From NCBI RefSeq assembly GCF_008274215.1, contig NZ_VTPS01000005.1, forward strand, positions 62,001 through 126,000: a stretch of DNA of 64,000 bases, written 5' to 3'. The position numbers and the translations under genes were made by a program. The notes beneath the pieces are model-generated. The model was not told the origin of the DNA. It did no database searches and saw only the letters and a list, made by a program, of their open reading frames with translations. Origin of the DNA: Calorimonas adulescens. GTDB taxonomy: Bacteria > Bacillota > Thermoanaerobacteria > Thermoanaerobacterales > UBA4877. Shown here in pieces: positions 56,238 through 63,702 of the stretch. Positions within the stretch are counted from its first letter, which is position 1. Every line of letters begins with the position of its first letter.

Positions 56238-56273
56238 TAAAAAAATAACCATCAGTTCCAATCACTGATGGTT
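56238..56273 (-). terminator. Terminator of hydF
   Basis: AACCATCAG/CTGATGGTT, 9-bp perfect stem, followed by ATTTTTTT on the minus strand. The hydF stop (56262-56264) is in the loop. Confidence 0.9.
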
Positions 56274-57488
56274 AACCTCGCCCACTTTATATGCCTCCTC
56301 AAAAGGTTGCGTAACCCTCTCCAGTATCCCATTGAGATAAGCAATTATAACACCGTAGTTTACTATGGGCACTCCAGCATACATTGCCCTTGATATCCTG
56401 TAGAGCATCTCTCTTCTATTAATCATGCAAGCCCCGCAATGGATTATCAGTTTATACCTTTTAAGGTCATAGTCCTCCGGCATATCCCGACCTGTCAGAT
56501 AGTCATAATTAAGTTCACCGCCAATATAGCTGTTTAGCCATCTGGGTATCTTTACACGCCCTATATCATCACCTATGGGATGGTGTGTACATGTCTCCAT
56601 GATAAGTACCCTGTCTCCCGGTCTCAAGCCATCAATGGCTTCGGTACCGTTTATCATAGTGTCGAGGTCGCCCTTGTACCTTGCAAACAGGATGGAAAAT
56701 GACGTAAGCAGTATATCCAAAGGGGTGTCCATGGCCACCTGATGAAAAGCCTGAGAATCGGTAACCACCAACGCAGGTTTACTTTTAAGGTTCCTTAGCA
56801 CATTGGGGTATTCGTCCTCTTTTACAACCACTGCTGATGCACCATGGTCCAGCACATCTCTTATGGTCTGCACCTGTGGGAGAATAAGCCTGCCCTTTGG
56901 TGCTTCCATATCTACAGGCACCACCAGGACCACTGTTTCCCCAGGAGACACTATATCCCCCAGTATAGTCTCTTCACACCAATCAGAAGGTGCATTCTCT
57001 ATGATGAGCCTCTTTAGTTCGTTAATCCCCTCCCTCGTCTTAGAACTGACGGTTACACATGGTAAACCGGTATTTACTTGTATCTCCTTATCAGTAAGGT
57101 CTGCCTTGTTAAACACAATCACAACTGGTATCTCTTTTTCTTTTATCATATCCAGAAGCCTATGCTCATATATGCCCATGCCCCTCGTAGCGTCCACCAC
57201 AAGAAGCACCATATCACTCTGTTTCAGAACCTGCATGGATCTTTTTACCCTGAGTTCGCCCAGTTCCCCCTCATCGTCAATGCCTGCAGTGTCAATGAGC
57301 TCGACAGGTCCCAATGGCAAGAGTTCCATCGCCTTGTATACAGGGTCCGTAGTTGTCCCAGGTGTATCGGATACAAGTGCTATATCCTGCCCTGTAAGGG
57401 CATTTATAAGACTGGATTTACCCGCATTCCTCTTCCCAAATATTGCTATATTGAGCCTCGAACCTCTTGGCGTATTGTTCATCATCAC
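56262..57488 (-). CDS. hydF: [FeFe]-hydrogenase maturation GTPase HydF
   Basis: 408 residues: GTPase with G1 FGKRNAGKSSLINAL, G3 DTAGIDDEGE, G4 NKAD; a C-terminal cluster domain with THHPIGDD and HCGACMINRREM (His and Cys ligands). HydF is the scaffold that receives the 2Fe subcluster. Starts 6 bp after hydG. Last gene of the operon. Confidence 0.97.
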   Translation of the reverse strand: MMMNNTPRGSRLNIAIFGKRNAGKSSLINALTGQDIALVSDTPGTTTDPVYKAMELLPLGPVELIDTAGIDDEGELGELRVKRSMQVLKQSDMVLLVVDATRGMGIYEHRLLDMIKEKEIPVVIVFNKADLTDKEIQVNTGLPCVTVSSKTREGINELKRLIIENAPSDWCEETILGDIVSPGETVVLVVPVDMEAPKGRLILPQVQTIRDVLDHGASAVVVKEDEYPNVLRNLKSKPALVVTDSQAFHQVAMDTPLDILLTSFSILFARYKGDLDTMINGTEAIDGLRPGDRVLIMETCTHHPIGDDIGRVKIPRWLNSYIGGELNYDYLTGRDMPEDYDLKRYKLIIHCGACMINRREMLYRISRAMYAGVPIVNYGVIIAYLNGILERVTQPFEEAYKVGEVNHQ

Positions 57489-57494
57489 ACCCTC

Positions 57495-58904
57495 CTAAAA
57501 ATATAGATCTCTCTGCCCCTCCTCTATCAATTTCAGCCTATCCTCTGTCATCTGACGCACCTTAGGGTTCCTTATCTGACTCAGATGTTTTCTTATGGTG
57601 TCTTCGCCAACCCTCTTGGTCTCCTCAGATGCATAGTCCATAAGATACTCTTTGAAAGTAAGAATGGCGTTTGGCTGGCAGCAGTTCTGTATATTGCCAC
57701 TCTTGGCTAACTTCATAAATCTGTCCCCTGTCCTAAACTTGCGGTAACAGGCCGTACAATAACTTGGCAGATATCCCTGTCTGCACAAATTCCTCAGAAC
57801 CTCATCAGGTGCTCTATTATCTTCCACCTCAAACTGTGCTGTATCCTCATCGGATTCCTTGTCCTCATACTCCTTTTTATATCCGCCAACCCCCGTACAT
57901 GAACCGGCACTTATCTGTGAGACACCAACCGACATTACCTCTTCGCGAAATCCCGGGTGCTCCCTCGTTGTAAGTATAATCCCTGTATAAGGGACAGCCA
58001 GCCTTATAATTGCAACCAGTTTCTTAAATTCCTTATCCGGTACCAGATATGGATATTCGGATATATTGACTCCCACAGCAGGCCTCAGGCGCGGTACAGA
58101 GATGGTATGGGGCCCGACTCCAAATGTCCTATCTAAATACATGGAGTTATACACAAGGCCCATCACCTCATACCTGTAGTCATAAAGCCCAAACAGCACA
58201 CCCAGCCCCACATCATCTATTCCGCCCTCCATTGCCCTTATATGGGCTGTGGTATGATAGTCGTAGTCATGTTTTGGCCCTGCAGGGTGCATATATGCAT
58301 ATGTGGGCCTGTGATATGTTTCCTGAAAAAGCACATATGTCCCTATCTTTGCTTCTTTAAGCCTCCTGTAGTTTTCCACAGTGGTTGCAGCAATATTTAC
58401 GTTTACTCTTCTTATATTGCCATTATCGTTCTGAACACTATAGATGGTTGATATACAGTCCAATATATACTCTATAGGACAGTTTACAGGGTCTTCCCCA
58501 GCTTCCAAAGCCAGCCTCTTGTGCCCAAGAACCTCCAAAACTCTTACCTCTTCTTTCAGTTCTTCCATGGTGAGTTTTTTTCTGCTTATACTGTTTTTAT
58601 GTCCATACCCACAGTAGCGGCAGCTATTAACACAATAATTGCTCAAGTAAAGCGGTGCAAACAGTACTATTCTCCTGCCATATATCTTTTCCTTTATTTC
58701 TCTTGCTACATTATATATTTCCTCCAGCAGTTCCTCATCCTCCACATAAAGCAAAGCCGCCACTTCTACCGGTTCTAAGCCTTTTGCTTCCCTCGCCCTG
58801 TCTATTACTCCAAGGATATCTGCTCTTGTAAAACCTCTTCCCCTATTGAGATTGTCATTTATCTTCTCGTCATCGATAAAATCAGCTTTCAGCTCATCAT
58901 ACAT
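57495..58904 (-). CDS. hydG: [FeFe]-hydrogenase maturation tyrosine lyase HydG
   Basis: 469 residues from ATG 58904 (MYDELKADFIDD) behind AAGGGGAAA; the frame is open to 59027 only because it overlaps hydE. Radical SAM motif CVNSCRYCGY and the C-terminal auxiliary cluster motif CTACYRKFRTGDRFM with NCCQPNA, which is the site of Fe(CO)2CN formation from tyrosine. Overlaps hydE by 16 bp. Confidence 0.97.
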   Translation of the reverse strand: MYDELKADFIDDEKINDNLNRGRGFTRADILGVIDRAREAKGLEPVEVAALLYVEDEELLEEIYNVAREIKEKIYGRRIVLFAPLYLSNYCVNSCRYCGYGHKNSISRKKLTMEELKEEVRVLEVLGHKRLALEAGEDPVNCPIEYILDCISTIYSVQNDNGNIRRVNVNIAATTVENYRRLKEAKIGTYVLFQETYHRPTYAYMHPAGPKHDYDYHTTAHIRAMEGGIDDVGLGVLFGLYDYRYEVMGLVYNSMYLDRTFGVGPHTISVPRLRPAVGVNISEYPYLVPDKEFKKLVAIIRLAVPYTGIILTTREHPGFREEVMSVGVSQISAGSCTGVGGYKKEYEDKESDEDTAQFEVEDNRAPDEVLRNLCRQGYLPSYCTACYRKFRTGDRFMKLAKSGNIQNCCQPNAILTFKEYLMDYASEETKRVGEDTIRKHLSQIRNPKVRQMTEDRLKLIEEGQRDLYF

Positions 58905-59968
58905 ACGGCATTTCCCCTTCTTAATGATTTGGGACTCTCCCCATAGCCGGTCGATACCTTCCTGCCGATGGAGTTTATAATTCCTTCTATGCAGTGCCTG
59001 CAGGCCTCGGGCCTCTCGCCTGTACATATCTTGCTCGGGTATATCTCGTACAACCTTCTGTAATTCACTGGCATCACATTGGGCATAACCACATTAGCTC
59101 CTGCCATCAACCCCTTTTGCCTCCCAAAACTATCCAAACTTCCCAGTGCCGTTGTTGCTGGAAGGTTCACCAGAGGGTTTACAAGCCTTGTCACAGCAAG
59201 CACTTTAAGCGTCTCTTCCACAGTGCCTGATGGAAACCTTCCAAGAGGCGTATTTGGATTGGAAATAAAAGGCCCTATGCCTATCATATCCGCATCCATT
59301 TCTCTGAAAAAGATAATGTCCTCTGCCAGTGTCTCCACATTCTGCCATGGAAGCCCCACCATGTTACCCGTACCCAGCTCATACCTCAATGACTTTAAAT
59401 CCTTCTGGCATCTTATCCGGTTTTCATAGCTCATGCCGGGATGTAATTTTCTGTACAGCTCTCTATTTGATGTCTCCTGTTTGATAAGATACCTGTCTGC
59501 CCCGGCTTCTCTCAAAAGCCTGTAGTCTTCAAAGTCCCTTTCACCTATCGACAGTGTTATCGCCACATCTACCCTTTCCTTTATCCTCTTTATCACATCA
59601 CAAAGGAGTCCTGTAGTATAAAAACTGTCTTCCCCAGACTGCAGTACTAAGGTTTTATATCCAATACTGACGGCGTACGCGGCGATATCTACAATTTCTT
59701 CAGGCATGAGCCTATAGCGGGTAATGTTCCTATTATTTTTTCTCAAACCGCAATAGAGGCAGTTCCTCTCACAAAAGTTGGAAAACTCTACTATACCCCT
59801 CAGGTGGACATAATCTCCAAAAACAGCCTTTCTTATCCTGTCTGCAGTTTGAAAAAGGGCATCCATTTCATCCTTCTCTGGTTTTAAAAGAAAGATCACC
59901 TCTTCCTTGGTAAACCTTGCACCATTTAAAGCCTTTTTCAGCATGTCATCATATTCAGCTCTCATCAT
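58889..59968 (-). CDS. hydE: [FeFe]-hydrogenase maturation radical SAM protein HydE
   Basis: 359 residues: FSNFCERNCLYCGLRKNN (CxxxCxxC), then the TIM barrel with LQSGEDSFYT and GIGPFISNPNTPLG. HydE makes the organic part of the H-cluster bridging ligand. It starts 5 bp after the TM1266-type gene; the second ATG is equally possible (AGGTGAT upstream). Confidence 0.97.
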   Translation of the reverse strand: MMRAEYDDMLKKALNGARFTKEEVIFLLKPEKDEMDALFQTADRIRKAVFGDYVHLRGIVEFSNFCERNCLYCGLRKNNRNITRYRLMPEEIVDIAAYAVSIGYKTLVLQSGEDSFYTTGLLCDVIKRIKERVDVAITLSIGERDFEDYRLLREAGADRYLIKQETSNRELYRKLHPGMSYENRIRCQKDLKSLRYELGTGNMVGLPWQNVETLAEDIIFFREMDADMIGIGPFISNPNTPLGRFPSGTVEETLKVLAVTRLVNPLVNLPATTALGSLDSFGRQKGLMAGANVVMPNVMPVNYRRLYEIYPSKICTGERPEACRHCIEGIINSIGRKVSTGYGESPKSLRRGNAVCMMS

Positions 59969-59973
59969 ATCAC

Positions 59974-60219
59974 CTATTTCGTTATAGCAGTCTTTACATG
60001 CACCCCTGGCAAATTGCCAAGCTTGCCGGTAAGAGCACCTATCTCGTCAGTGGTTCCATCTATTATCAAAGAAATGACAGAGACACCCCTTTCCCTGTAT
60101 GGAATTCCCATTCTTCCAACTATAATATGGGCATACATGCTTAGAATGTTATTTAATTGACTGGACACAGGTTCCCTATTGTCCACTACGATTCCTATGA
60201 CCCCTATCCTCGTCTCCAT
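59974..60219 (-). CDS. TM1266-type iron-only hydrogenase system regulator
   Basis: 81 residues with a ferredoxin-like (ACT-type) pattern: TRIGVIGIVVDNREPVSSQL, HIIVGRMGIPYRERGVSVIS, LTGKLGNLPGVHVKTAI. This is the small TM1266 family found with hydrogenase maturation genes, thought to be a regulator. First gene of TM1266-hydE-hydG-hydF. Its ribosome binding site GGGGGGATATT lies immediately after the leader terminator. Confidence 0.92.
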   Translation of the reverse strand: METRIGVIGIVVDNREPVSSQLNNILSMYAHIIVGRMGIPYRERGVSVISLIIDGTTDEIGALTGKLGNLPGVHVKTAITK

Positions 60220-60367
60220 AATATCCCCCCGAAAAACAATAATAGCCTATCCACCGGATAGGCCAACTTTCATACTTTTGACTTATCCCCTGGGACTCAG
60301 GTCTTCCCTTGTCTTCAGGCTCCACGCTTCAACCTCCGGCTCAGGTTTCCCCTTGCCATTAGTTATT
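60220..60367 (-). ncRNA. Structured leader of the hydEGF operon, putative riboswitch
   Basis: From the predicted start near 60367 the minus-strand RNA carries GGCAAGGGGAAACCTGAG (60357-60340) and, 44 nt later, GACAAGGGAAGACCTGAG (60313-60296), 15 of 18 positions alike. Each copy starts a hairpin (AACCT/AGGTT around GAGCCGG; CCT/AGG around GAGTCCC). A terminator GCCTATCC/GGATAGGC (60263-60245) with T-rich tail follows, just before the gene. GGATAAG (60288-60282) can pair with CCTATCC of the terminator (6 of 7), giving an antiterminator. No known riboswitch class recognised. Confidence 0.68.
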
Positions 60368-60373
60368 GATTTG

Positions 60374-60402
60374 ATAATAACATAACAAACATTAAAAGTC
60401 AA
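60374..60402 (-). promoter_or_regulatory. Promoter of the hydEGF operon
   Basis: TTGACT (60397-60402) and TATTAT (60374-60379), 17 bp apart on the minus strand. It places transcription start near 60367, about 150 nt before the first gene. Confidence 0.75.
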
Positions 60403-63468: not shown

Positions 63469-63702
63469 CTATGCCGCATCTTCAAATAGGGCTACAGCAT
63501 GTTCAATGACCATTTTTACTACATTGTCTAGTCCTTTCTGGTCTTTAAAGCCCCTTCGGCGCAGCAATCTCTTGACTGTTGCCCGAATAGAAGCTTTGAT
63601 GTTTTCTTTAATCGTCCAATCTACCTGCCCTTCAGTTTTACTCTTTATTATCCTCACCAGCTCCCTGGCAATTTTTTTTGCTTCTTCATCATTTAAAATC
63701 AC
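63469..63702 (-). pseudogene. C-terminal remnant of a type I restriction HsdR subunit
   Basis: 77 residues: DEEAKKIARELVRIIKSKTE, VDWTIKENIKASIRATVKRL, LRRRGF. This is the C-terminal (DUF3387) end of HsdR, normally at the tail of a protein of about 1000 residues. Only this piece is present, starting at GTG behind AGAG, with unrelated DNA upstream. No hsdM or hsdS nearby. It may still be translated. Confidence 0.7.

Follow-up and report, generated by a model that had tools for sequence, protein, structure and literature searches.

A tandem-hairpin leader of [FeFe]-hydrogenase maturation genes: a candidate attenuation RNA family and its possible protein partner TM1266

The leader of the hyd operon

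What regulates the H-cluster maturases (HydE, HydF, and HydG) in anaerobes? I know of no sensor for them. In the window (the whole stretch of 64,000 nucleotides of Calorimonas adulescens DNA that was analysed), a leader lies on the minus strand between a DAHP synthase gene and the TM1266-hydE-hydG-hydF genes. A first-pass annotation, made from the letters alone, had read this leader as a transcription-attenuation riboswitch. Is it an attenuator, and what may it sense? The annotated and predicted features are listed below in the direction of transcription.

60374..60402 (-), sigma-70 type promoter TTGACT-17-TATTAT with TG before the -10 element, 10 of 12 consensus positions
60330..60364 (-), hairpin unit 1: outer pairs ACU/GGU, helix UGGC/GCCG, inner pairs GGG/CCU, two 2x2 purine loops of the tandem G.A type
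60286..60320 (-), hairpin unit 2: outer pairs CCU/GGG, helix GAC/GUC, inner pairs GGG/CCU
60280..60288 (-), antiterminator strand GGAUAAGUC, with one G (60288) common to the outer helix of unit 2
60256..60264 (-), terminator 5′ arm GGCCUAUCC, partner of the antiterminator strand
60232..60265 (-), intrinsic terminator: stem 60265-60243 (10 pairs, 5 of them G-C) and T-rich tail TTATTGTTTTT, -14.9 kcal/mol
60225..60230 (-), Shine-Dalgarno sequence GGGGGG of TM1266, with the terminator directly before it
59974..60219 (-), TM1266 family protein, a NikR-type regulatory domain without a DNA-binding domain (TIGR03959, 118 bits; PF21699)
58889..59968 (-), hydE (TIGR03956, 387 bits)
57495..58898 (-), hydG (TIGR03955, 664 bits); the longest ORF starts from 59027, the likely start is near 58898
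56262..57488 (-), hydF (TIGR03918, 578 bits)

Most of the layout described earlier was found again. The promoter is present at 60402-60374, and its letters are identical in a relative of the same family (L034). The predicted transcript has about 148 nucleotides up to the TM1266 ATG at 60219, close to the earlier estimate of 150. The two 18-mers CAAGGGGAAACCTGAGCC and CAAGGGAAGACCTGAGTC, read directly, are 15/18 alike and 44 nucleotides apart. However, they do not each open a small hairpin, as had been thought; they are the apical halves of two hairpins of 35 nucleotides (60364-60330 and 60320-60286), whose folding energies are -12.4 and -10.0 kcal/mol for units 1 and 2. With the family covariance model, which had both units in its training set, unit 1 scores 41.2 bits (E 7e-8 in its own genome) and unit 2 scores 40.9 bits (E 9e-8). 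Unit 1 shows compensatory pairs relative to L034. The terminator does touch the first ribosome binding site, its stem (60265-60243) and tail standing directly before the GGGGGG at 60230-60225. The segment said to pair with its 5′ arm is real and slightly longer than described (60288-60280 with 60264-60256, 8 of 9 pairs).

A leader peptide is not favoured; the 14-codon frame MARGNLSRRLKRGA, which starts inside unit 1 (approximately 60319-60361, minus strand), has no convincing Shine-Dalgarno sequence. Elsewhere in the window, the match of a 77-aa ORF (63469-63702, minus strand) to type I restriction enzymes (PF11867) is confined to their C-terminal end, and the ORF is possibly a gene remnant.

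Comparative structure and distribution of the element

The family was traced through the sequences upstream of TM1266 in related genomes. Many of these regions carry CCUGA-N4-RAGGG-loop-CCUGA-N4-RAGGG between a promoter-like sequence on the 5′ side and a terminator on the 3′ side. The hairpin follows the formula YCU·GA·N4·RA·RGR-loop-YCU·GA·N4·RA·RGR (35 nucleotides for each copy in the window) and is a near-perfect dyad composed of outer pairs, a tandem G·A, a variable helix of 4 bp, a tandem A·G, and inner pairs. A tandem arrangement, or a one-sided first hairpin, was also seen directly in many relatives. None of 98 sequences departs from the central C and G in the outer and inner pairs, and both 2x2 loops are mostly GA facing AA or GA, which amounts to tandem G·A or A·A mismatches. 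The variable helix is CUUA/UAAG in a Caldicellulosiruptor-like group, GAU/GUC and GGU/ACC in L034, GUCC/GGGC in L044, UUGC/GCAA in L046, UAAA/UUUA in L038, and GAC/GUC in unit 2 of the window.

Do these substitutions keep the stems? In an alignment of 13 sequences made by MAFFT without any structure input, ten pairs are kept in 96% of the cells; two-sided changes number 28, a result that no shuffle out of 500 equalled. RNAalifold, unprompted, returned the same pairs as found in this alignment. In the 98-sequence model (97 distinct rows), there are 257 two-sided cells versus 79 in shuffles, and the covariation score is 0.68 versus at most 0.19 for slid pairings. Thus, as the first-pass annotation had expected of a genuine element, the substitutions compensate rather than break the stems. 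Since alignments A3 and A7 were fitted to the structure, the argument is carried by the result with the unfitted alignment A2 and by the control of strand and position described below.

The 13-sequence covariance model, whose E-values are rough, was run on 398 genomes of the phylum without regard to gene context. Of the loci examined together with their downstream sequence (L083-L139; L101, which is truncated, was left out), nearly all lie directly 5′ of TM1266, hydE, hydG, or hydF. The remaining ones stand before the gene for an ECF transporter S component of PF12822 (L089, L096, L129, L130, and L134) or before an unknown gene (L124) or are spurious (L136 and L139). Over half of 40 weaker matches (E about 0.001-0.07) are still 5′ of the same genes. 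An independent test with 80 hydG loci of named genomes gave 31 matches up to E 0.63, every one on the hydG strand and upstream of hydG; they include several species of Clostridium, Moorella, Desulfosporosinus, Anaerospora, Solidesulfovibrio magneticus, and a deltaproteobacterial genome. The expected presence in the hyd leaders of related genomes was therefore confirmed by both the scan and the hydG loci. By these matches, the element was found upstream of hyd maturation genes in Bacillota and in Desulfovibrio-type or deltaproteobacterial genomes. With its compensatory changes and its constant same-strand position 5′ of functionally related genes, it is, as judged by comparison of sequences, a conserved structured cis-regulatory RNA.

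Some matches were discarded. L002 and L003, short DNA matches to the leader in its own genome, appear inside protein-coding sequence; the weak own-genome matches L140, L141, and L142, and L136, L139, L234, L236, L240, L244, and similar ones, are within genes or repeats and were dropped as chance.

Several genes recur beside the element. The ECF S component (PF12822, about 165-185 aa) stands under it alone or after TM1266 (L089, L096, L129, L130, L134, and L260; L110, L111, and L133), and livKHMG-like genes follow it in L096, L129, and L130; a sequence search among solved structures found no relative of this S component. An unannotated protein of about 100 aa is encoded between hydG and hydE in one family (L083, L087, L092, L113, and L120), and several of these loci carry the element separately for TM1266 and for hydG; the L113 copy of the protein has no Pfam match. 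Near motif-controlled hydG or ECF genes, a DUF554 membrane protein is found repeatedly (L118 and L134), and L106 and L118 continue with a class V aminotransferase-like gene. In L124 (G184:C16), a convincing element that has a terminator of its own lies 5′ of a gene for a 185-aa protein unrelated to the hyd genes.

Is the element already catalogued? No family of Rfam 15 matches the window leader, the best being STnc361 with 18.5 bits against a cut-off of 80, and nothing was found at E <= 1 in the leaders of 13 relatives. This agrees with the first-pass annotation, in which none of the riboswitch classes compared fitted. The sole match in the window that reaches the Rfam cut-off is an FMN riboswitch (RF00050, 10516-10629, minus strand, 118.8 bits), which is unrelated to the leader. 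In the open-access literature, no paper was found on the element, on the function of TM1266, or on a sensor for the H-cluster maturases, and hydrogenase genes are unmentioned in the multi-genome ncRNA discovery papers searched. These comparisons support the view that the leader represents an uncatalogued, widely conserved, structured family of putative attenuation RNAs for [FeFe]-hydrogenase maturation genes.

Predicted switching of the leader

A terminator lies 3′ of the motif in most loci. In 44 non-redundant leaders with a nearby terminator, the 3′ strand of the motif plus eight flanking letters was paired with the terminator 5′ arm. The mean energy is -11.8 kcal/mol for the own pairing, versus -9.9 when the arms are swapped between loci and -8.0 when they are shuffled (0 of 2000 permutations). 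The last ten letters of the motif alone show no excess of pairing (1253/2000); thus, the specificity resides in a stretch spanning the 3′ edge of the motif and its flank. The antiterminator duplex overlaps the outer 3′ strand of the hairpin in 42 of the 44 loci. Only one G is shared in the window, where the folded hairpin 2 and the antiterminator could nearly coexist. Thus, the competition there would have to be partly steric, and hairpin 2 probably needs to be bound by something. Comparative analysis establishes the hairpin and its conservation, the genes with which it is associated, and the locus-specific antiterminator pairing.

In the ON state, the terminator 5′ arm would be taken up by the 3′ end and flank of the last hairpin, which would act as the antiterminator. 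In the OFF state, the dyad-symmetric hairpin would be kept closed, and the terminator would form. Both hallmarks of a transcription attenuator were seen: an intrinsic terminator after the putative sensor domain and a predicted, mutually exclusive antiterminator pairing (with an overlap of 1 nucleotide in the window). In a minority of genomes, the hairpin overlaps the Shine-Dalgarno sequence of hydG, hydF, or the ECF S component, which may give a translational OFF control. The 3′ GGGG of the motif occupies the Shine-Dalgarno position before the ECF gene in L089, L096, L129, and L130 and before hydG in L242 and L269. Since the 3′ end of the motif is engaged in either the antiterminator pairing or the Shine-Dalgarno overlap, I infer that a stabilised hairpin, and hence the folded RNA, probably shuts the genes off.

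TM1266 and the signal that the hairpins may sense

TM1266 is the first gene of the operon in the window. The protein matches 2NZC by sequence, and its AlphaFold model has a TM-score of 0.94 to 2NZC and mostly about 0.8-0.9 to NikR. By this model, TM1266 folds like the regulatory domain of NikR, and it has no DNA-binding domain. TM1266 (2NZC) is a homotetramer (PMC12626770), and a tetramer with twofold axes would plausibly fit a dyad-symmetric RNA. There are no His or Cys metal ligands among the conserved letters of TM1266 (alignment A5); thus, NikR is no guide to its effector.

Does the motif follow TM1266? Among HydG-positive genomes of the phylum sample, 67 of the 178 that have a strong TM1266 carry the motif, compared with none of the 34 that lack it (Fisher 1e-6, kinship ignored). 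TM1266 is present in all 68 context-credible motif genomes of this sample. Three of the 71 hits in the sample had been set aside as spurious before this tally: those of G252 and G263, as their contexts (L139 and L136) are not leaders, and that of G089, as its match (L234) runs directly into coding sequence unrelated to the hyd genes. With a more sensitive model, one of the 34 TM1266-negative genomes (G398) became positive; its motif adjoins hydG, and a divergent TM1266 is present. About a dozen of 34 further TM1266-positive genomes gained a motif beside hyd or TM1266 genes. In families f7, f43, and f70, to which the contrast within kin is limited, the motif occurs in TM1266-positive genomes and in none of the TM1266-negative ones. 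Where named motif loci have no TM1266 nearby, seven of the eight genomes encode it elsewhere, versus one of nine motif-less genomes. The exception is a fragmentary Thermoanaerobacterium assembly, in which the motif is present and no TM1266 was detected. Acidaminococcus (L184) has TM1266 and no motif at hydG.

Two genera of the same order (g3 and g5) have TM1266 in another operon, where a gene for a coiled-coil (DivIVA-like) protein precedes it (L005-L007, L010-L012, L016, L017, L025, L026, L028, L029, and L035-L037). Elsewhere in these genera, a weak element and the Shine-Dalgarno sequence of hydG overlap (L242 and L269).

What may close the hairpins? Since the motif tracks TM1266 even when unlinked, and the protein is a NikR-type domain without a DNA-binding domain, I favour an attenuator in which the closed hairpins would be captured by a TM1266 tetramer, with a probability of roughly one in two. 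TM1266 as the hairpin binder is a hypothesis drawn from correlation and plausibility. The tetramer might report the state of H-cluster assembly, and the position of TM1266 as first gene would then suggest autoregulation of its own operon. A wider proposition is offered tentatively: throughout Bacillota and in some deltaproteobacterial lineages, the NikR/ACT-type TM1266 may be an RNA-binding attenuation protein for dyad-symmetric tandem-G·A hairpins, one that senses a signal of H-cluster assembly and thereby controls hydE/F/G, the TM1266 gene itself, and an orphan ECF transporter.

A true riboswitch is a less probable but serious alternative. The hairpin, single or in tandem, would itself bind a small molecule or ion linked to the H-cluster, and the terminator or the hidden Shine-Dalgarno sequence would follow. 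A compact core with highly conserved letters outside the pairs, the two expression platforms (terminator and Shine-Dalgarno occlusion), and the occurrence of single and tandem copies all suit this explanation; the joint control of biosynthesis genes and an ECF S component is a classical riboswitch pattern. The ligand might be an intermediate of H-cluster synthesis, an iron species, or a compound imported by the co-regulated S component; SAM, tyrosine, and iron, named in the first-pass annotation, are guesses from gene context. However, the core is a short hairpin with two 2x2 purine loops and near-exact dyad symmetry, in which no pseudoknot or junction was seen, and the strict co-occurrence with TM1266, even unlinked, is unexpected for a self-sufficient aptamer. 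From this co-occurrence and symmetry, a protein-responsive attenuator is at least as likely as a ligand-binding riboswitch. Thus, of the layout proposed earlier, the attenuation leader, tandem in the window, stands by its terminator, antiterminator pairing, and compensatory changes, and ligand binding is one candidate role.

It is improbable that another RNA-binding protein or an RNA-stability factor targets the hairpins, with TM1266 as no more than a member of the same regulon. Such a protein could plausibly use dyad-symmetric purine-loop hairpins as its sites, and TM1266 is often itself downstream of the motif, but the motif is confined to TM1266-encoding genomes also when TM1266 lies elsewhere. 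Chance repeats before an ordinary constitutive or upstream-operon terminator, with no regulatory RNA, would agree with the folding energy of the window leader, which alone is unremarkable (z -1.84) and leaves the support for the window element to comparison, but this explanation is refuted by the compensatory changes in about 100 sequences and by the strand and position bias of the matches at hydG loci, and the locus-specific pairing with the terminator also speaks against it.

If TM1266 does act on the hairpins, an orphan family with a solved structure (2NZC) would gain a candidate trans-acting role. The genes of the H-cluster maturases have in any case a widely distributed RNA element whose proposed on/off mechanism is open to test, and the substrate of the co-regulated orphan ECF transporter may be an H-cluster precursor or the sensed ligand. 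The element might also serve to steer hydrogenase maturation in clostridia that produce hydrogen.

How does the element compare with known systems? According to a review, tandem Wco riboswitches occur upstream of ferredoxin hydrogenase genes (PMC9481103). The element differs from Moco/Wco riboswitches in architecture and in its targets, which are the maturases and not the hydrogenase; there is no Rfam match at E <= 1 in the leaders of 13 relatives, and the matches of the window leader are non-significant and unrelated. TM1266 resembles the C-terminal regulatory domain of NikR (PF08753) and ACT domains in its predicted fold and as a homotetramer; unlike NikR, it lacks a ribbon-helix-helix DNA-binding domain and conserved His/Cys ligands (A5). 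As in guanidine-II (mini-ykkC) and other tandem-hairpin riboswitches, small tandem hairpins precede the expression platform. Guanidine-II RNAs have conserved ACGR tetraloops; in contrast, the conserved letters of the element are in internal purine loops, it has no Rfam match, and it precedes other genes. Among protein-responsive attenuators are PyrR/pyr, HutP/hut, TRAP/trp, and ANTAR proteins with tandem hairpins. I know of no sequence or structure common to their leaders and the element, and, unlike PyrR, HutP, and ANTAR, the proposed protein is a NikR-type or ACT-like domain whose binding is hypothetical here. The window leader has tandem hairpins like the ANTAR targets, and, as with PyrR, HutP, TRAP, and ANTAR, a small regulator, often encoded in its own operon, is proposed to steer a terminator and an antiterminator through a conserved leader hairpin.
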